The notes under the pieces: model-generated
Databases searched by the model: none
What the model was told of the DNA's origin: nothing
What the model saw: the letters and a program-made list of their open reading frames with translations, nothing else
Position numbers and translations under genes: made by a program
In this document: positions 5,000-63,460 of the stretch, piece by piece
Layout: each line of letters begins with the position of its first letter
How positions within the stretch are numbered: position 1 is the stretch's first letter
Assembly: GCF_001766675.1 (NCBI RefSeq)
Contig: NZ_MJLT01000045.1
Coordinates: forward strand, 62,001 to 126,000
Length of the DNA: 64,000 bases
Reading direction: 5' to 3'
DNA from: Arthrobacter sp. SW1
GTDB taxonomy: Bacteria; Actinomycetota; Actinomycetes; Actinomycetales; Micrococcaceae

Positions 5000-5440
5000 T
5001 CAGGCGGACGCTTCTTCGATCCTGCTCGCTTTGTCCTGCGTGGCTTTGCGGTCCGGTTTGGTGCGCTGCCGCGCGATGCATGAAGGCATTGCCTTGACGG
5101 CGTGGTGCTCCCGGTCCCGGTAGGCGCTGGGGGTCATGCCCACCACCTCGGTGAAGCGTGAACTGAAGGAGCCCAGTGAAGTACAGCCGACCTCCATGCA
5201 GGCATCGGTCACGCTGCTGCCGGCGCGGAGCAGGGCCATGGCACGTTCGATCCGCCGGGTCATGAGGTAGTTGTACGGCGTCTCCCCATAGGCGGCCTTG
5301 AACTGGCGCGAGAAATGGGCCGGCGACATCAGTGCCCGCCCGGCCATGGTGGGCACATCCAGCGGCCGGGCGTATTCGCGGTCGATCAAATCCTTGGCCC
5401 GGCGCAGGTGGGCCAAGTTGGCCAGCTCCTGGGGATTCAC
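5000..5440 (-). CDS. AraC family regulator (DNA-binding domain only)
   Basis: A 146-residue regulator consisting essentially of the AraC double helix-turn-helix (residues 10-110: LDVPTMAGRALMSPAHFSRQFK, then SVTDACMEVGCTSLGSFSSRFTEVVGMTP). It lacks the usual effector-binding partner domain, which may instead be supplied by the VOC protein encoded 23 bases downstream. That idea is inference from operon structure. The basic C-terminal tail is unusual. The first copy of the 63-bp palindrome lies 15 bases upstream of its start. Confidence 0.88.
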   Translation of the reverse strand: MNPQELANLAHLRRAKDLIDREYARPLDVPTMAGRALMSPAHFSRQFKAAYGETPYNYLMTRRIERAMALLRAGSSVTDACMEVGCTSLGSFSSRFTEVVGMTPSAYRDREHHAVKAMPSCIARQRTKPDRKATQDKASRIEEASA

Positions 5441-5455
5441 AGGGCTATCCTAAGC

Positions 5456-5518
5456 CAACGCGGGGTCACTTACGGCCCATGTTTGGTGCAAACATGGGCC
5501 GTAAGTGACCCCGCGTTG
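5456..5518. repeat. 63-bp palindromic element, copy A
   Basis: Two perfect 30-base arms (CAACGCGGGGTCACTTACGG at the outer end, then CCCATGTTTG) around a GTG loop. It lies 17 bases past the amidase stop and before the AraC gene, both on the minus strand. Further copies are at 21322, 61141 and 63023. Confidence 0.95.
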
Positions 5519-5535: not shown

Positions 5536-7254
5536 CTAGCCGAGGCGGGGCGTGCGGGGCGGTTCGCTGCGGCGGGTGCCCGTCGCTTCGAAGGCCGCGG
5601 CCAGGGTGAGCAGCGCGGTGTCGTCATAGGCGCGGCCGGCGAAGGTCAGGCCCACCGGCATGCCGGTATCGGCCATGGTGCCCATCGGGACCGTGACGGT
5701 CGGGATGCCGAGGTGGCGCGGGACCAGGTTGCCGTTGGCCACCCACACGCCGTTGCGCCAGCCGAGGTCCGCGGACGCCGGGTTCACGTCCATGTCCGCA
5801 GGCCCGACGTCGGCTACCGCGGGGAACAGCACGGCGTCCAGGCGCAGGCCGTCCATCCATTCCTCGAGGTCGAGCTTGCGCGTCAGCTCCAGCCCGCGCA
5901 CGCCCGCGGCCAGCTCCGGGATCTCCGTCACGGCGGAGACCGGGTTGGCCTGGACGTGCGCCGGGTATTCGGCGATGTCGTCGTCGAAGCCGGCGTAGCG
6001 GTCCGGGAGGGCGCCTTCCGGGTGCGGGAAGATCTGCGAGCCGTCAACCTGCGCCAGGGAATTGAGCGCAGGATCCCCGTTGGCGGCCAGGAAGTCGTCC
6101 CAGGACCAAGCGGAGAGGTCCACGATTTCGCGCTTCAGGTACTCCGGGCTGACCAGGCCGCGGGTGGCGATGGTGGGTGCGCCGGGCCGGTCGCCTTCGT
6201 AGTTGGAGACCACGGGGAAGTCCACCAGCACCACCTCGGCGCCGGCGGCTTCCAGGTCCCGCCGGGCCGCTTCCCAAAGCTCGATCACGGAGGCTCGGGT
6301 TTCGATCCGCTGCCCGGTCGGCCCGCCGATACCGGGCGAATCGGCAGTCCCGGCGTCGGGATCGGCGTTCACATACATGCGCGGCACCCCGAAGCGCTTG
6401 CCCCGCAGAGCCGCCCGTCCGCCGTCGGCGTCCCCGGGAGGCGGCGCGAGGGCCGGGTACGACTCAGGCCGCACCTCGGAGGCCTTCGGGATCTCCACCC
6501 ATGGCTGCACGCGCCAGAAATCGCCGCGGGTCTCGGCGTCGTCCGCAACCACCACGTCCAGGATTTCCAGAAGGTCAGCCATGGTGCGGGTGTGCGGAAC
6601 CACCACGTCCATAGTGGGGACCAGCGGCCAGTTGCCGCGCACCGAGATGACGCCGCGGGACGGCGTGTACGCGCACAGGGCATTGTTCGACGCCGGCGCA
6701 CGGCCGCTTGACCAGGTCTCCTCGCCCAGGCCGAAGGCCGCGAAGCTCGCCGCCGTCGCCGTGCCGGAACCGTTGGAAGAGCCGGAGCCGAAGGCGGCCG
6801 TGAGGAAGTCCGCGTTGTAGGGGCTTTCGGCACGGCCGTAGACGCCCCGCTGCATGCCGCCGTTGGCCATGGGCGGCATGTTGGTCAGGCCGATCAGCAC
6901 GGCGCCGGCTTCGCGCAGGCGCTCGATGGTGAAGGCATCCTTCTGCGCCACGAGGTCCTTGAACGCGGGGGAGCCGGCGGCGGCTGTGAGCCCCTTGGCC
7001 AGGTAGGAATCCTTGGCGGTGTATGGGATGCCGTCCAGCGGGCCGCGCACCTCGCCGCGGGCACGGCGCTCGTCGGAGGCGGCTGCGTCCGCACGCGCCT
7101 CCGGGTTCATGACCACCATGGCGTTCAGCTCGCCGTCGTACGCGTCGATCCGGGCGAGGTACGCGTCCAGGAGCTCGACGGCGGTCGTTTCGCCGGACTC
7201 CAGCGCCGCGCGCAGCTGCGCGATGGAGGCCTCGACGACGTCGATGCGCGCCAT
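5536..7254 (-). CDS. Amidase signature family enzyme
   Basis: A 572-residue amidase-signature hydrolase. It shows the Lys of the Ser-cisSer-Lys triad in PYTAKDS (residue about 80) and the Gly/Ser-rich GSGSSNGSG loop carrying the cis-Ser (about 157). The nucleophile region reads ETWSSGRAPASN where most members have GTDTGGSIRIPAS, so it is a divergent subgroup, although its serine is kept. The start ATG overlaps the stop of the agmatine deiminase gene (TAATG), implying translational coupling and a shared pathway, plausibly hydrolysis of N-carbamoylputrescine or another amide. The specific substrate is inference. Confidence 0.85.
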   Translation of the reverse strand: MARIDVVEASIAQLRAALESGETTAVELLDAYLARIDAYDGELNAMVVMNPEARADAAASDERRARGEVRGPLDGIPYTAKDSYLAKGLTAAAGSPAFKDLVAQKDAFTIERLREAGAVLIGLTNMPPMANGGMQRGVYGRAESPYNADFLTAAFGSGSSNGSGTATAASFAAFGLGEETWSSGRAPASNNALCAYTPSRGVISVRGNWPLVPTMDVVVPHTRTMADLLEILDVVVADDAETRGDFWRVQPWVEIPKASEVRPESYPALAPPPGDADGGRAALRGKRFGVPRMYVNADPDAGTADSPGIGGPTGQRIETRASVIELWEAARRDLEAAGAEVVLVDFPVVSNYEGDRPGAPTIATRGLVSPEYLKREIVDLSAWSWDDFLAANGDPALNSLAQVDGSQIFPHPEGALPDRYAGFDDDIAEYPAHVQANPVSAVTEIPELAAGVRGLELTRKLDLEEWMDGLRLDAVLFPAVADVGPADMDVNPASADLGWRNGVWVANGNLVPRHLGIPTVTVPMGTMADTGMPVGLTFAGRAYDDTALLTLAAAFEATGTRRSEPPRTPRLG

Positions 7255-9025: not shown

Positions 9026-9125
9026 GCGCACATGTCCGTCTGCCGCATCGAAGGATGGACGTAGCGGTGATATGTCCACTCCCGGGGCTTGACGGTGGAC
9101 ATGTCCTGTAGCCGCAGTAAACAGC

Positions 9126-9162
9126 AGCGGACGACGGCGGGTACCTCCCGCCGTCGTCCGCT
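9126..9162. terminator. Strong hairpin terminator (GACGACGGCGGG type)
   Basis: Perfect 16-base arms around a 5-base loop, followed by CGCTTTTA on the plus strand. It separates the convergent TetR (ends 9025) and reductase (ends 9178) genes. Its core is nearly identical to the hairpin at 23326. Confidence 0.9.
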
Positions 9163-21321: not shown

Positions 21322-21384
21322 CAACGCGGGGTCACTTAGGGCCGCTTTGAGGGCCTGGAATGGGCCGTATGTGACCCCGCGTTG
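21322..21384. repeat. 63-bp palindromic element, copy B (degenerate core)
   Basis: Same length and outer arms as the other copies (14 outer bases perfectly paired), but the inner arms have diverged, leaving CTTTGAG-GGC-CTGGAAT at the centre. It starts 12 bases past the stop of the small gene at 21396. Confidence 0.9.
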
Positions 21385-23325: not shown

Positions 23326-23364
23326 CAGCCGACGACGGCGGGAGCCTCCCGCCGTCGTCGGCTG
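23326..23364. terminator. Strong hairpin terminator (GACGACGGCGGG type)
   Basis: Nineteen complementary bases on each side (CAGCCGACGACGGCGGGAG and its complement). It shares the 12-base GACGACGGCGGG core with the terminator at 9126 and follows the SRPBCC gene by 10 bases. Confidence 0.88.
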
Positions 23365-23388
23365 CCGTTAAGCTCCCGGCAGTACGCT

Positions 23389-40315: not shown

Positions 40316-41071
40316 ATGGCCGAAAAACCCTCGGGAGGCGTGCAGTCCGTCGAGCGCGTCTTCGAACTGCTGGAACTCATCACGGACGCCGGCGGTGACG
40401 TTACGCTCAGCGAACTGTCGTCGTCGACCGATCTTCCCCTGCCCACCATCCACCGCCTGCTGCGCACGCTCGTGGCACTCGGCTACGTGCGGCAGCTTCC
40501 CAACCGGCGCTACGCCCTGGGTCCGCGCCTGATCCGCCTCGGCGACGGCGCCAACAAGCAGCTCGGCGCACTGGCGCGCCCGCAGCTGAAGTCCCTCGTG
40601 GACCGGCTGGGGGAGACCTCCAACATGGCCGTGCTCGATTCGGACATGGTCATCTACGTGGCCCAGGTTCCGTCCCCGCACTCCATGCGTATGTTCACGG
40701 AGGTGGGCCGCCGCGCCCACACCCACGACACCGGCGTCGGCAAGGCCATCCTCGCCCAGCTGGACGACGAGGTGGTCCGCGGCATCGTGGCCCGCACCGG
40801 CATGCCCACGCCCACGGCCAAGAGCATCGGCGACATCGATTCGCTGCTGCATGACCTCAAGCTCATCCGCGAACGCGGCTATTCCATTGACGAAGAAGAG
40901 CAGGAACTGGGTGTCCGCTGCTTCGCCATGGCCGTGCCGAACGCCCCGACGCCCACGGCGATCTCCGTGTCCGGCCCGATCACCCGTGTGGACCAGGACT
41001 TCGCGGACCGCGCCGTTCCCATGCTGCGCGAAGCTGCCGAGGCCCTCTCGATCGAGCTGAACCGCAACTGA
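40316..41071 (+). CDS. IclR family regulator, AllR-like
   Basis: A 251-residue IclR protein: N-terminal winged helix (VQSVERVFELLELITDAGGDVTLSELSSSTDLPLPTIHRLLRTLVALGYVR, residues 9-59) and the C-terminal effector domain (MAVLDSDMVIYVAQV, HTHDTGVGKAILA). The effector region resembles AllR, which senses glyoxylate/allantoin intermediates. It diverges from the malic enzyme-allE operon, which it probably represses. ATG 40316 follows AGGAGA by 8 bases. Confidence 0.9.
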   Translation: MAEKPSGGVQSVERVFELLELITDAGGDVTLSELSSSTDLPLPTIHRLLRTLVALGYVRQLPNRRYALGPRLIRLGDGANKQLGALARPQLKSLVDRLGETSNMAVLDSDMVIYVAQVPSPHSMRMFTEVGRRAHTHDTGVGKAILAQLDDEVVRGIVARTGMPTPTAKSIGDIDSLLHDLKLIRERGYSIDEEEQELGVRCFAMAVPNAPTPTAISVSGPITRVDQDFADRAVPMLREAAEALSIELNRN

Positions 41072-41111: not shown

Positions 41112-41169
41112 CGAGCGTACAGTTGAGGCCCTGGAATCCGCGGATTCCAGGGCCTCAACTGTACGCTCG
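41112..41169. repeat. 58-bp perfect palindrome
   Basis: Two 29-base arms with no spacer and no mismatch (CGAGCGTACAGTTGAGGCCC at the outer left, TGGAATCCG at the centre). It lies between the convergent IclR (ends 41071) and NCS1 (ends 41188) genes. It has similar architecture to the 63-bp elements but a different sequence. Confidence 0.95.
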
Positions 41170-41187: not shown

Positions 41188-42729
41188 CTAGTCGTCGCTG
41201 AGTGAACCGTCGTTCACGTCGACGCCGTCGTCAGCCAGGTTGATCATGGGCGAGGTCTTCTCGAGCTGGCGGAAGACCACCAGGCCCAGGCCGCAGCCGA
41301 TGAACCAGCTGTAGTTGCCCAGCCAGGTGAAGTCCACCGTGGTGGCCCCGGTGTCCAGGAGCAGCTTGGGGATGATCACCGAGGCGACCGATACCGCGCC
41401 GCTGATGGCCACGGCCTTGATGGCGTTGGGGTTGTAGCCGTTCTTGAACCAGTACTTGCCTTTCGGGTCCATGGTGTACATCTCGTCCACCCAGACCTTC
41501 TGGCGGCTCACCAGGTAGTAGCCGGCAATCAGGATGCCGAACAGCGGGCCGATCAGTGCGCCCAGGATGCCCAGCGAGTAGTGGATGGCGGTGGCGTTGC
41601 TGTACCAGTTCCACGGAAGCAGGATCACGGAGCCGACGGCGGCGATCATGCCGCCGGTGCGCCAGCTGATCTTGTGCGGGGCAACGTTGGAGAAGTCGAA
41701 GGCCGGGGAGATGAAGTTGGCCACGATGTTGATGCCTACCGTGGCGGTGACGAAGGTCAGGCCGCCCAGCAGGATGGCGAACGGGGTGTCGATCCGCTCC
41801 ACGGTGTGGATGGGGTCGGTGATGAGTTCTCCGAACACCGGGACGGTGGCCGAGGCCGTGATGACCGTCAGCAGCGAGAAGAACAGGAAGTTGATCGGCA
41901 GGCCGAGGAAGTTGCCCTTCTTGACCGCCTTGAAGGACTTGCCGTAGCGGGCGAAGTCGCCGAAGTTCAGCATGGGGCCGGAGAAGTAGGACACCACGAT
42001 GGCGATGGCGCTGAGCATGACCGGGATGGAGGCCCAGAAGTCCAGCGGTTCGCCGGCGGAGAGGTCCAGGCTGACCTTGTCCCAGCCTGCCTGGGAGACC
42101 AGGTAGATGGCCAGGACGATCATGACGACGTACACGGCGGGGCCGGCGAAGTCGATGAACTTGCGGATGGTTTCCATGCCGTTCCAGAACACGGCGGCCT
42201 GCGCAACCCAGAGGATGGCGTAGGAGATCCAGCCCAGCGCGGAGAGCCCGAGGAAGGAGTAGTCCGTGGCCAGGGCGTGGGTGGCCGGGATGAACTTCAG
42301 GAAGATGATGTTCAGCGATTCCGCGGCCAGGAAGGTCTGCACCCCGTACCAGGCGATGGCGATGGCGCCGCGGATGATGGCCGGGATGTTGGCGCCCTTG
42401 ATGCCGAAGATGGCGCGGTTGATGACCGGGTATGGAACACCGGTCTTCTGGCTGGGCTTGGCCACCAGGTTGGTGAAGACCTGGACGATCACAATGCCGA
42501 TGATCAGGGCAAGGAGAACCTGCCAGCTGGCGATGCCGAGGGCGAAAAGGCTGCCGGCGGTCACGTAGCCGCCGACGCTATGCACATCGGACATCCAGAA
42601 GGCGAAGATGTTGTAGGCGCCCCACTTCTGGTGCTTGAGCGGGACGAGGTCCTCGTTGGCGAGGCGGTGGTCATAGTGGGGCTTGACGGCTTCGGCGCCA
42701 GTGCCGGCAGCGGTCTCAAGTTCAGCCAT
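41188..42729 (-). CDS. NCS1-family permease (probable allantoin/purine-related carrier)
   Basis: A 513-residue, 12-helix nucleobase:cation symporter-1 protein. N-terminal NEDLVPLKHQKWGAYNIFAFWMSDVHSVGGY and GVQTFLAAESLNIIF are typical, and the Na+/substrate helices PAIIRGAIAIAWYG and GPMLNFGDFARYG are intact. The position beside IclR/ureide genes suggests allantoin as substrate (PucI/AllW type), but uracil or hydantoin cannot be excluded from sequence. AAGGAAC is 5 bases before the ATG. RpiR regulator gene lies just upstream. Confidence 0.88.
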   Translation of the reverse strand: MAELETAAGTGAEAVKPHYDHRLANEDLVPLKHQKWGAYNIFAFWMSDVHSVGGYVTAGSLFALGIASWQVLLALIIGIVIVQVFTNLVAKPSQKTGVPYPVINRAIFGIKGANIPAIIRGAIAIAWYGVQTFLAAESLNIIFLKFIPATHALATDYSFLGLSALGWISYAILWVAQAAVFWNGMETIRKFIDFAGPAVYVVMIVLAIYLVSQAGWDKVSLDLSAGEPLDFWASIPVMLSAIAIVVSYFSGPMLNFGDFARYGKSFKAVKKGNFLGLPINFLFFSLLTVITASATVPVFGELITDPIHTVERIDTPFAILLGGLTFVTATVGINIVANFISPAFDFSNVAPHKISWRTGGMIAAVGSVILLPWNWYSNATAIHYSLGILGALIGPLFGILIAGYYLVSRQKVWVDEMYTMDPKGKYWFKNGYNPNAIKAVAISGAVSVASVIIPKLLLDTGATTVDFTWLGNYSWFIGCGLGLVVFRQLEKTSPMINLADDGVDVNDGSLSDD

Positions 42730-61095: not shown

Positions 61096-61140
61096 CGCTT
61101 CCTTCTGGCGCAACGCGTCCCTCTGCAACGCGTCCTTCCG

Positions 61141-61203
61141 CAACGCGGGGTCACTTACGGCCCATGTTGGCGCCAAACATGGGCCGTAACTGACCCCGCG
61201 TTG
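61141..61203. repeat. 63-bp palindromic element, copy C
   Basis: Same 63-base length and 30-base arms as copy A, with two mismatches between arms and a CGC loop; the left arm reads GTCACTTACGG while the right complements GTCAGTTACGG. It starts 46 bases past the SDR stop. Confidence 0.95.
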
Positions 61204-61467: not shown

Positions 61468-62958
61468 ATGAAGATCCCAGATTCCGCGGAGCTGAAGGCG
61501 AGTTCGGCCCCGCAGAAGAAGAAGCCACTGTACAAGTCGCTCTTCTTCCAAATTCTGATCGCCGTTGTCGCAGGTGTTCTGATTGGCCACTTCTGGCCGA
61601 GCATCGGTTCCGGCCTGCGTCCGTTGGGCGATGGCTTTATCCAACTCATCAAGATGATCATCGCCCCGTTGATCTTCCTGGTGATCGTCACCGGCATCTC
61701 CGCCGTCGGCGACGTCAAGGCCGTGGGCCGGGTCGGGGTCAAGGCCCTGCTCTACTTCACCGCAGCCACGCTCTTCGCCCTCGTCTTCGGCCTTTTAGTC
61801 GGAAACATCGTCCAGCCCGGCGCGGGCCTGAACATCGATCCCGCCACCCTGTCGCAGGAAGCTGTTGACGCCAAGACCGGCCACGCCCAGCCCAAGGACG
61901 CTGCATCGTTCCTCCTGGGCGTGATCCCCACCAGCGTGATCGGCGCGTTCGCCAACAACAGCCTGCTTCAGGTGCTCTTCTTCTCCGTGTTCTTCGGTGC
62001 GGCCATCGTGGTCATCGGCCGGCAGCGCTGCCTTCCCGTCATCCTCCTCATGGAGACCGTCCTTGAACTGATCTTCAAGATCATGTCCTGGATCATGAAA
62101 GTCGCCCCCATCGGTGCTTTCGGTGCCATGGGCTTCATCATCGGCCAGTACGGCCTGGACACCCTGGGCACCTACGCCCTGTTGATCGCCGCCTGCTACG
62201 GTGCCGCCGTCGTCTTCATTGCGCTGCTGTTCCTGGTCGCCTGGTCTTTCGCCCGGGTTCCGCTCTGGCAGTTCCTGAAGTACACCCGCGAGGAGTTCCT
62301 CCTGGCCCTCGGTACCGCTTCCACGGAGGCCGTGATGCCGCGCATCATGACCAAGCTGACCAACGCAGGGTGCTCCCGGGCCACCACCGGCCTGGTCATC
62401 CCCACCGGCTACTCCTTCAATCTGGACGGCGCCGCGATCTACCTGTCCATTTCCCTGCTGTTCCTGGCGCAGGCCTTCGGCCACAACCTGGACCTCGGCC
62501 AGCAGCTGGCCGCCCTGGGCGTGCTGCTCCTGACCTCCAAGGGCATGGCCGGCGTCCCCGGTTCCTCGTTCCTGGCGCTCTCCGCCACGGCGGCAGCCCT
62601 GGGAATCTTCCCGGTGGCCGGTGTGGCCCTGCTGCTCGGCGCGGACCGCCTCATGGACTCCATGCGCGTGGTGGTCAACCTGCTGGGCAACTGCGTGGCG
62701 ACCTTCGTGGTGGCCAAGTGGGAAGGCCAGTTCGACCGCAGCGTCATGGTGCGCGCCTTCAACGGCGAGATCACCAACGAAGACTCTGCCATCATGCTCG
62801 GCAAGGAAGAGGTCTTCGAAGAGCAGGAGCTCGAGCGCCTCAGTGAAGGCCAGGAGCCCTCGCCCAAGTTCCGCGGCGGCCCGGTGGCCGAAGACATTCC
62901 GCAGTTCGAAATGAGCAGGCCAAACCAGCGCCAGCAGGGTCCGGTTTCCCCGGACTAA
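61468..62958 (+). CDS. dctA: C4-dicarboxylate transporter
   Basis: A 496-residue dicarboxylate/amino acid:cation symporter, importing succinate, fumarate or malate. SLFFQILIAVVAGVLIGHFWP opens the membrane region, and PTGYSFNLDGAAIYLSISLLFLAQ is the DctA/GltP signature loop, with GMAGVPGSSFLALSATAAALG and LLGNCVATFVVAKWEG near the end. Start ATG 61468 has no convincing Shine-Dalgarno. It is separated from the SDR by palindrome C and a terminator, so has its own promoter with a GntR-type site. Confidence 0.92.
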   Translation: MKIPDSAELKASSAPQKKKPLYKSLFFQILIAVVAGVLIGHFWPSIGSGLRPLGDGFIQLIKMIIAPLIFLVIVTGISAVGDVKAVGRVGVKALLYFTAATLFALVFGLLVGNIVQPGAGLNIDPATLSQEAVDAKTGHAQPKDAASFLLGVIPTSVIGAFANNSLLQVLFFSVFFGAAIVVIGRQRCLPVILLMETVLELIFKIMSWIMKVAPIGAFGAMGFIIGQYGLDTLGTYALLIAACYGAAVVFIALLFLVAWSFARVPLWQFLKYTREEFLLALGTASTEAVMPRIMTKLTNAGCSRATTGLVIPTGYSFNLDGAAIYLSISLLFLAQAFGHNLDLGQQLAALGVLLLTSKGMAGVPGSSFLALSATAAALGIFPVAGVALLLGADRLMDSMRVVVNLLGNCVATFVVAKWEGQFDRSVMVRAFNGEITNEDSAIMLGKEEVFEEQELERLSEGQEPSPKFRGGPVAEDIPQFEMSRPNQRQQGPVSPD

Positions 62959-63022: not shown

Positions 63023-63085
63023 CGACGCGGGGTCAGTTACGGCCCATGTTTGGCGTAAACATGGGCCGTAACTGACCCCGCGTTG
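63023..63085. repeat. 63-bp palindromic element, copy D
   Basis: CGACGCGGGGTCAGTTACGG at the outer left, with a GCG loop and near-perfect arms. It ends 3 bases before the sterol-carrier gene stop and lies just past the dctA terminator. Confidence 0.95.
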
Positions 63086-63088
63086 GGT

Positions 63089-63460
63089 TTAGAAGGGGAG
63101 CAGTTCGGACAGGTCTGCGCGCAATCCCGAGGCGGCGACCCGGCCGGCGTCGACCGCGTCCGCCCATCCCAACCGCCCGCTGACCAGGGCCAGCCAGGTG
63201 GCGGCGTCGCACTCGATCACGTTCGGGGGAGTGCCGCGCGTGTGCCGCGGGCCTTCCACGCACTGCGCGACGCCGAACGGCGGCACCCGCACTTCCACCG
63301 AGTTCCCGGGGGCGCGGGCGGTGAGTTCCTCAAGGGTGTAGCGGACTGCCGTCGCGAGGGTGTTGCGCGGCAACGCTGCATCCTCGCTGCCGCGTTCCTG
63401 CCATGCCGCCAGGGCGGCGCGGCCTTCCTCGAGCGGTACCCGACGCCGGGCAACAGCCAT
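63089..63460 (-). CDS. Sterol-carrier family protein
   Basis: A 123-residue protein of the actinobacterial sterol-carrier (SCP2-like) family: [63 protein letters not shown] is diagnostic. It likely binds hydrophobic ligands, function unproven. It follows the asparaginase gene by 33 bases on the same strand, suggesting co-transcription. Confidence 0.8.

Follow-up and report, generated by a model that had tools for sequence, protein, structure and literature searches.

A dispersed 63-bp palindrome and a nuclease-like gene look like a new kind of repeat-and-enzyme pair spreading within Arthrobacter chromosomes

Short palindromic repeats are an old puzzle of bacterial genomes, both for what makes them and for what lets them persist, and RAYTs are the answer for some bacteria. 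The same question is raised by a stretch of 64,000 nucleotides from Arthrobacter sp. SW1 (Arthrobacter s.l., genome of 4.12 Mb in 69 contigs), hereafter the window (G000:C45:62001-126000), in which four palindromes of one length lie close to gene ends:

5456..5518, no strand assigned: copy A, a 63-bp palindrome with perfect 30-bp arms and a 3-bp centre, amid the tandem genes 5000-5440 (minus) and the amidase gene 5536-7254 (minus)
21322..21384, no strand assigned: copy B, a 63-bp palindrome with a degenerate interior and intact ends, scoring 63.2 bits with the covariance model
61141..61203, no strand assigned: copy C, a 63-bp palindrome
63023..63085, no strand assigned: copy D, a 63-bp palindrome amid the convergent genes 61468-62958 (plus) and 63089-63460 (minus)

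The original prediction had described these palindromes as being all 63 bp long, sharing their outer ACGCGGGGTCA and lying less than 50 bases from a stop codon, with a degenerate interior in B and an imperfect position 14 in C. All of this was recovered: position 14 of C is a C/C mismatch, and the distances to the stop are 17, 11, 45 and 3 bp for A, B, C and D, using gene calls from our own codon-score script rather than a standard gene finder. A pattern made of the ends and their spacing has exactly four matches in the window, versus none in 100 shuffles, and the RNA folds of A, B, C and D reach -60.4, -43.4, -52.1 and -58.5 kcal/mol (z -7 to -14). No Rfam family was found in the window at gathering scores. 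Just before copy C, at 61111-61135, CAACGCGTCC occurs twice and shares CAACGCG with the start of the element; this pair may be a remnant.

Extending the search to the whole SW1 genome yielded 42 elements once two false pattern rows (L044:383 and window:59624) had been removed. Ends are exact in 37 of them and carry one mismatch in five; none carries two or three, in a search allowing up to three, and the reversed pattern used as a control matched once. Half-arms match at 82 places, every one inside the 42 elements (control 0), so that neither solo ends nor other lengths are seen in SW1, and the copies are neither chance matches nor, as detailed below, indifferent to gene 3' ends. Of the 61 genus genomes, 34 carry exact copies, the range being 0 to 75 per genome (reversed-pattern control 0). 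It is hardly conceivable that chance or an assembly artefact would produce this: one SW1 contig, C10, does end at an apparent element, but the genomes carrying copies include single-contig ones (G011 and G046), and shuffling the window never reproduced the pattern. A scan of 84,980 species gave at least 116 stretches with matches and, among the matches listed, all titles name Arthrobacter, Pseudarthrobacter, Paenarthrobacter or one Micrococcaceae MAG. The covariance model found matches at E<=0.01, many of them weak, in 27 of 30 genus genomes with few or no exact copies, and in six of 25 genomes of other genera. 

The layout of the element is CAACGCGGGGTCA, six variable bases, GCCCAT, a 13-bp centre and then the mirror image, its end bases being CAACG/CGTTG in most of the 42 SW1 copies and CGACG, AAACG or TAACG in some. 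The centre can have almost any sequence, and total length is nonetheless constant, at 63 bp in 42 of 42 SW1 elements. Among arm pairs in the fetched loci, 162 of 163 are at 63 bp and one is at 62; these loci were partly picked by a 63-bp pattern, and the SW1 count and the slot between rho and prfA are less biased. This slot could be fetched from 59 of the 61 genus genomes, and 13 of the 58 parsed hold a 63-bp element at the same point, while the unparsed one (G031) holds one element, judged by coordinates. Remnants of elements were found there in G022, G047 and G059 (42, 34 and 24 bits), and a further one was recognised in G040 by eye alone; in these decayed elements intact ends or exact length are gone. 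Inside the arms, 15 of 30 pairs have changed on both sides among 98 distinct copies (226 cells versus a shuffled mean of 126, reached in 0/500 shuffles), and the six-base modules of the two arms of one element agree at 0.80, versus 0.71 between elements of the same genome (0/2000). The left arm is the worse one in 16 SW1 elements and the right one in three (p 0.004, noticed post hoc), but this asymmetry was not repeated in other genomes (26 versus 32) and we treat it as chance.

The free centre makes it possible to trace the history of copies. At least 11 of 13 bases match the centre of another SW1 locus in 27 of the 42 elements. Centres at orthologous sites agree on average at 6.2 of 13 bases, versus 10.5 for the best SW1 partner, with 16 wins and three losses for the latter. 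The best-partner score is a maximum over 41 copies, and a foreign maximum over 41 copies averages 9.2 versus 10.9 within SW1 (all 42 elements), so that the excess is real, though less than the raw difference suggests. Four other genomes, each sampled at 7 to 11 copies, showed a small excess or none. Given that centres match within the genome and diverge between orthologues, copies are overwritten or re-laid within SW1 while their sites persist. The suggestion that these are mobile palindromic repeats, REP- or MITE-like, therefore stands as to their kind, as judged from dispersal, patchy copy number, copying of centres and 3'-end bias; the RAYT that the prediction wanted looked for was not found in SW1, as will be seen. 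Among orthologous slots, 131 aligned pairs hold the exact pattern and 30 do not, some of the latter being near-exact, and we found neither a target-site duplication nor a clean empty site; slots hold other hairpins or fail to align. In one such comparison (L095 versus L054), where SW1 has the 63-bp element, the other species has a palindrome, ATCGATTGCTCC..., that resembles a family bracketing homologues of the partner gene introduced below in G009, G041 and G046, so that one slot can be occupied by different palindrome families.

Position is biased. By our own gene calls, the 42 SW1 copies lie in 23 convergent, 16 tandem and 3 divergent gaps, in comparison with 12, 33 and 12 for the 57 gene gaps of the window, and 128 copies from other genomes are distributed as 66 convergent, 44 tandem, 5 divergent and 13 at the edge of a locus. 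At 89 convergent sites the copies lie a median of 13 bp from a stop; at 60 tandem sites the medians are 13.5 bp from the stop upstream and 66 bp from the start that follows. By eye, nothing recurrent was seen beside divergent copies that would suggest a gene for a self-regulator. Together with the very stable hairpin, such positions favour bidirectional intrinsic terminators, or the dedicated mRNA 3'-end element that the prediction had offered as its second reading, in which selection would act on the RNA and the nuclease-like gene described below would be incidental. Two further observations suit it: by eye, several element-free species carry another, plain hairpin in the orthologous slot, and T is enriched outside the element. 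The prediction had seen no U-tract, which is true of the window copies taken singly and fails for pooled flanks, where the frequency of T at +2 to +6 is 0.53, 0.41, 0.53, 0.43 and 0.35 (335 outward flanks of 168 copies). What is seen is a GC-rich hairpin with an imperfect T-bias, which is alike on both sides, in tandem copies too (2.43 T of 7 on the 3' side versus 2.22 on the 5' side, p 0.37). In the sense strand of the 60 tandem copies G.U pairs do not exceed A.C mismatches (23 versus 24), which, with the symmetry of the T-bias, points to a constraint on DNA rather than RNA. Terminators need neither sequence-conserved ends nor an exact length, a separate rho hairpin stands beside the element in the rho-prfA slot (by eye), and the paired genes would be left without an explanation. 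We thus regard an RNA-level origin as quite improbable, and terminator use as a plausible side role.

REPINs are REP doublets that go with a tyrosine transposase, the RAYT. In the relevant parts of PMC3116915 and PMC3733652, they have conserved ends, length-critical spacers with compensatory changes and sites next to gene 3' ends, and the element resembles them as a symmetric extragenic hairpin with conserved ends and fixed spacing, accompanied by an enzyme gene flanked by copies. It is nevertheless very unlikely that these are classical REPs or REPINs moved by a RAYT (a Y1 HUH transposase), or MITEs of a DDE transposon. The search for a RAYT-type transposase that the prediction had called for came out empty in SW1, the genome in which it was made: Y1_Tnp (PF01797) has 0 matches there despite the recent spread, while it matched 5 of 14 control genomes, and the ends lack the GTAG- or CGTC-footed form of REPs. 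A RAYT is therefore rejected for SW1. So is a DDE transposon, no parent with the same terminal repeats having been found there, nor the solo arms or long copies that would mark one. Lacking in SW1 both a Y1 transposase and a GTAG or CGTC foot, the element is not a member of the REPIN/RAYT class, and yet it would work like one, with a candidate partner that belongs to another protein family and whose C-terminus is predicted to be of VSR/EDxHD type. The main text of PMC3733652, which lists phyla with such repeats, does not name Actinobacteria. A phage or plasmid origin was rejected as well: the element was found in 0 phage records and 0 IMG/VR viral contigs, relatives of the partner protein in 0 viral contigs, and plasmid matches were confined to two megareplicons of Arthrobacter sp. 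StoSoilB13 (10 and 18 places, in a region without annotation).

The partner was traced through pairs of elements lying close together, which in several genomes enclose one and the same gene:

G000:C10:57683-58609, outside the window: the candidate partner gene of SW1, encoding a protein of about 310 aa

Homologues of this protein are present in 61 of 61 genus genomes, but the clade at 68% identity or above is found in 17 only, plus a partial homologue at 79% identity in G050. In 16 of these 17 loci, which were fetched by protein, the family pattern places an element on both sides, one of the two copies in G029 being apparently one arm base short. At the SW1 locus itself there is one element, and 75 bp upstream of the ATG the contig breaks off in bases that look like the start of another. 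Wherever the upstream element could be read, in 16 of 16 loci, 64-67 bp separate its end from the ATG. Among the 798 genes predicted in element-rich loci, five are flanked on each side, at no more than 150 bp, by an element of the 63-bp family (family 1), one of the five being the partner gene. The gene also goes with copy number: the 18 genomes with the clade (G050 included) carry 7-75 copies (median 17.5) and the 43 without it 0-28 (median 0), so that at least seven copies are found in 18 of 18 versus 7 of 43 (Fisher 3.7e-10, Mann-Whitney 1.6e-8, both ignoring kinship). The seven exceptions carry 7-28 copies, as in G049 (22), G060 (24) and G052 (28, in a 79% complete genome), which argues that the current presence of the gene is not needed for persistence. 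The flanks of several partner-gene loci align between species, so that the association of the gene with the elements around it may in part reflect common inheritance. The end of contig C10 at this locus resembles an element and one copy on C56 lies about 240 bp from a contig end; palindromes such as these may break short-read assembly.

Across the protein family, other clades are paired with other palindromes. The clade at 54-60% identity (n=11) has a different palindrome, with a core of 59 bp, on both sides in 11 of 11 loci by a pattern written post hoc, and in 8 of 11 under a strict automatic test for same-family palindromes on both sides. This test misses pairs that are visible, as it gives 15 of 17 for the clade at 68% or above versus 16 of 17 by family pattern; its background, from random 910-bp intervals, is 9 of 1988. 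Forty further homologues were selected from the protein-search list before their flanks were read, and the test was written after the first 20 of these extra homologues had been read and before the second batch. In the group at 35-41% identity, which comprises more than one clade, 18 of 31 loci are bracketed on both sides. The first batch contributes 9 of 11, among them the SW1 paralogue on C34 with its 57-bp palindromes; the second, the only one read after the test was written, contributes 9 of 20, so that support outside the main clades is weaker. Among the 11 failures of that second batch some are one-sided, some are bare, and in at least one a contig end truncates a flank; the test was also failed by L360, L120, L278, L399 and L259. 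A bare clade (nine homologues at 48-53% and L398 at 54%) is bracketed in 0 of 10 cases, with all its EDxHD residues kept. Support for monophyly is 0.90 for the clade at 68% or above and 0.99 for both the 54-60% clade and the bare clade. In other genera, four of six homologue loci are bracketed by families of their own under this test (G158, G254 and two in G330) and two are not (G299, G066); those of G158 and G254 were obtained through their palindromes and those of G330 from random samples. The palindromes of L357 came to light de novo, ahead of any knowledge of the gene. Among 43 non-redundant bracketed homologues, palindrome similarity follows protein identity (Mantel r 0.85, 0/2000), and 39 of the 43 share their palindrome family with their nearest relative.

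Within each of these other families, all copies that were read agree in length: 74 bp in G254 (8 of 8), a 60-bp core in G330 (3 of 3), and 63 bp in G413 (7 of 7), in which the partner gene was not located. The palindrome of the 54-60% clade is sparse, a 400-kb sample of G005 having a single degenerate copy. One family is present in the window itself:

41112..41169, no strand assigned: a member of a sister family, CGAGCGTACA...TGTACGCTCG, forming a perfect palindrome of 58 bp, amid the convergent genes 40316-41071 (plus) and 41188-42729 (minus)

Among the SW1 loci read, two more copies of it were found (L043 and L063), and in another genus (G330, L349) the same family brackets a homologue of the partner gene on both sides. 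Yet another palindrome, CGCAGTTGTTGTCG...CGACAACAACTGCG, with a core of 44 bp in 9 of 9 matches, occurs in L259, L261 (G046), L081, L088, L108, L111 and L147, and lies on either side of a partial homologue in L259.

What the partner protein does is suggested by its relatives and its predicted structure. The SW1 protein matches AbiEi in PADLOC (E 5.5e-10) through its N-terminus, whereas Pfam and NCBIfam gave nothing for it at E<=0.01. Among 22 homologues, Pfam at E<=0.05 finds MTES_1575 in 21, DUF559 in 16 (weak matches, to the C-terminus) and AbiEi_4 in four. AbiEi-plus-DUF559 proteins are common in Actinobacteria. An AlphaFold model built from four sequences has a pLDDT of 52 overall; it is below 50 over most of the N-terminal part and good at about 210-309, where the predicted order of helix, three strands, helix and strand is that of PD-(D/E)XK nucleases. 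The best match among solved structures is the catalytic domain of I-Bth0305I (Z 11.3, rmsd 2.6, 95 residues aligned), followed by VSR (Z 9.6); the E-value of Foldseek itself is 0.034 at best. The E, D, H and D of the EDxHD signature are present in 78, 78, 76 and 77 of 78 distinct homologues, and 55 of the 78 have Q or N in place of E before the Y(D/E)G motif. The fold that the model confidently predicts for the C-terminus is that of a VSR/EDxHD-type nuclease of the PD-(D/E)XK superfamily.

The 63-bp palindromes are thus probably the dispersed partner sites of one cognate AbiEi-like, nuclease-like protein, short non-autonomous repeats that this protein would spread and hold uniform in trans in the way RAYTs do with REPINs. 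Counting against this are the seven genomes that have copies and no gene of the clade at 68% or above, the bare clade with its full set of EDxHD residues, the Q or N before the Y(D/E)G motif, the SW1 protein's failure to match Pfam or NCBIfam, and slots that yielded no target-site duplication or clean empty site. For the further proposal that bacteria host a class of such pairs, in which a homing-endonuclease-like protein of AbiEi type spreads and overwrites its own target of about 60 bp inside the chromosome, and which radiated in the Micrococcaceae into many clade-specific pairs of protein and palindrome, convergent with RAYT-REPIN and unrelated to it, we see even chances. In such a mechanism two monomers would bind the two arms of about 25 bp, leaving the 13-bp centre unread as a spacer that sets distance and helical phase; if a dimer reads the arms and takes the centre as a distance only, the conservation of the ends, the freedom of the centre and the constancy of length would all follow. 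The nuclease would then cut or nick in or near the element, and repair would copy another element over the cut one, overwriting the centre and keeping the old site; the copying is observed, and it is the cutting as its driver that we infer. Under repair copying the arms would drift as a dialect of each genome, and rare off-target events would found new copies, tolerated at gene 3' ends, where the elements are indeed found and where they may serve as bidirectional terminators. At 10.5 bp per turn, lengths of 63 and 74 bp amount to about 6 and 7 turns, as would suit a pair of arms kept in phase on duplex DNA, but we give this little weight because the families of 57-62 bp fit less well.

I-Bth0305I, with which the modelled C-terminus shares its catalytic fold and E-D-H-D residues, dimerises on a target of nearly 60 bp according to the account of it in the review PMC3943268; that enzyme is of phage origin and of the group I intron kind, in contrast to a protein with an AbiEi-like N-terminus and tens of target-like copies per chromosome. 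AbiEi is the antitoxin of AbiE, a type IV toxin-antitoxin system. As described in the relevant part of PMC7319586, its DNA target is a pair of 23-bp inverted repeats separated by 3 bp, and its relative in M. tuberculosis binds repeat pairs with a 13-bp gap, which recalls the two arms of about 25 bp and the 13-bp centre. The partner protein shares N-terminal sequence similarity with AbiEi, and differs from it in having a nuclease-like domain in place of the antitoxin C-terminus and in the dispersal of its sites over the genome. The same paired repeats speak for an alternative in which the elements are operators that benefit the host: an AbiEi-like regulator or roadblock would bind them, copies would be selected at gene ends, and the nuclease domain would move nothing. 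Ends and length conserved at old orthologous sites, the element 64-67 bp upstream of the partner gene itself and the symmetric T-bias of the flanks would all agree with this. Selection alone, however, does not account for free centres that are near-identical between loci in 27 of 42 elements and differ between orthologues, as expected if they were copied, nor for an exact copy number ranging from 0 to 75 within one genus. We therefore hold operators to be rather unlikely, and retain the reading of partner sites spread in trans by a cognate nuclease-like protein.

Taken together, palindrome and nuclease-like protein resemble a partnership of repeat and enzyme of a new kind, spreading within bacterial chromosomes. 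In the open-licence PMC literature we found no description of the 63-bp element or of its pairing with a nuclease-like gene, so that one may exist in print elsewhere, and none of a palindrome partner for MTES_1575/DUF559 proteins, which the C-terminus resembles through its weak Pfam matches. Our findings point to a second, unrelated enzyme solution to the puzzle of short palindromic repeats, in Actinobacteria. They also offer a concrete role for the AbiEi/DUF559-like group of proteins, candidate nucleases with sites of about 60 bp and, in the diverging pairs of protein and site, a panel for studying how DNA specificity evolves.

Some observations concern neighbouring features. GC-skew, read for a bias towards origin or terminus in 11 samples of G046, was too noisy to interpret. 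The rho-prfA spacers (L195-L253) revealed by eye, in the loop of the rho terminator hairpin, a second and unrelated palindromic element (GGGAGTGGCATCGGGCCTG...variable hairpin...GGGGCGG), present in many genomes of the genus. Rfam gave one chance-level match for it on seven loci, far below the gathering score. SW1 has three good copies (L285, L286 and L287), and that in L285 is apparently in frame inside a coding sequence. In the window, the hairpins at 9120-9162 and 23327-23369, with GACGACGGCGGG arms, have sequence in common, and similar GACGGCGG hairpins occur in the samples of G330 and G005.
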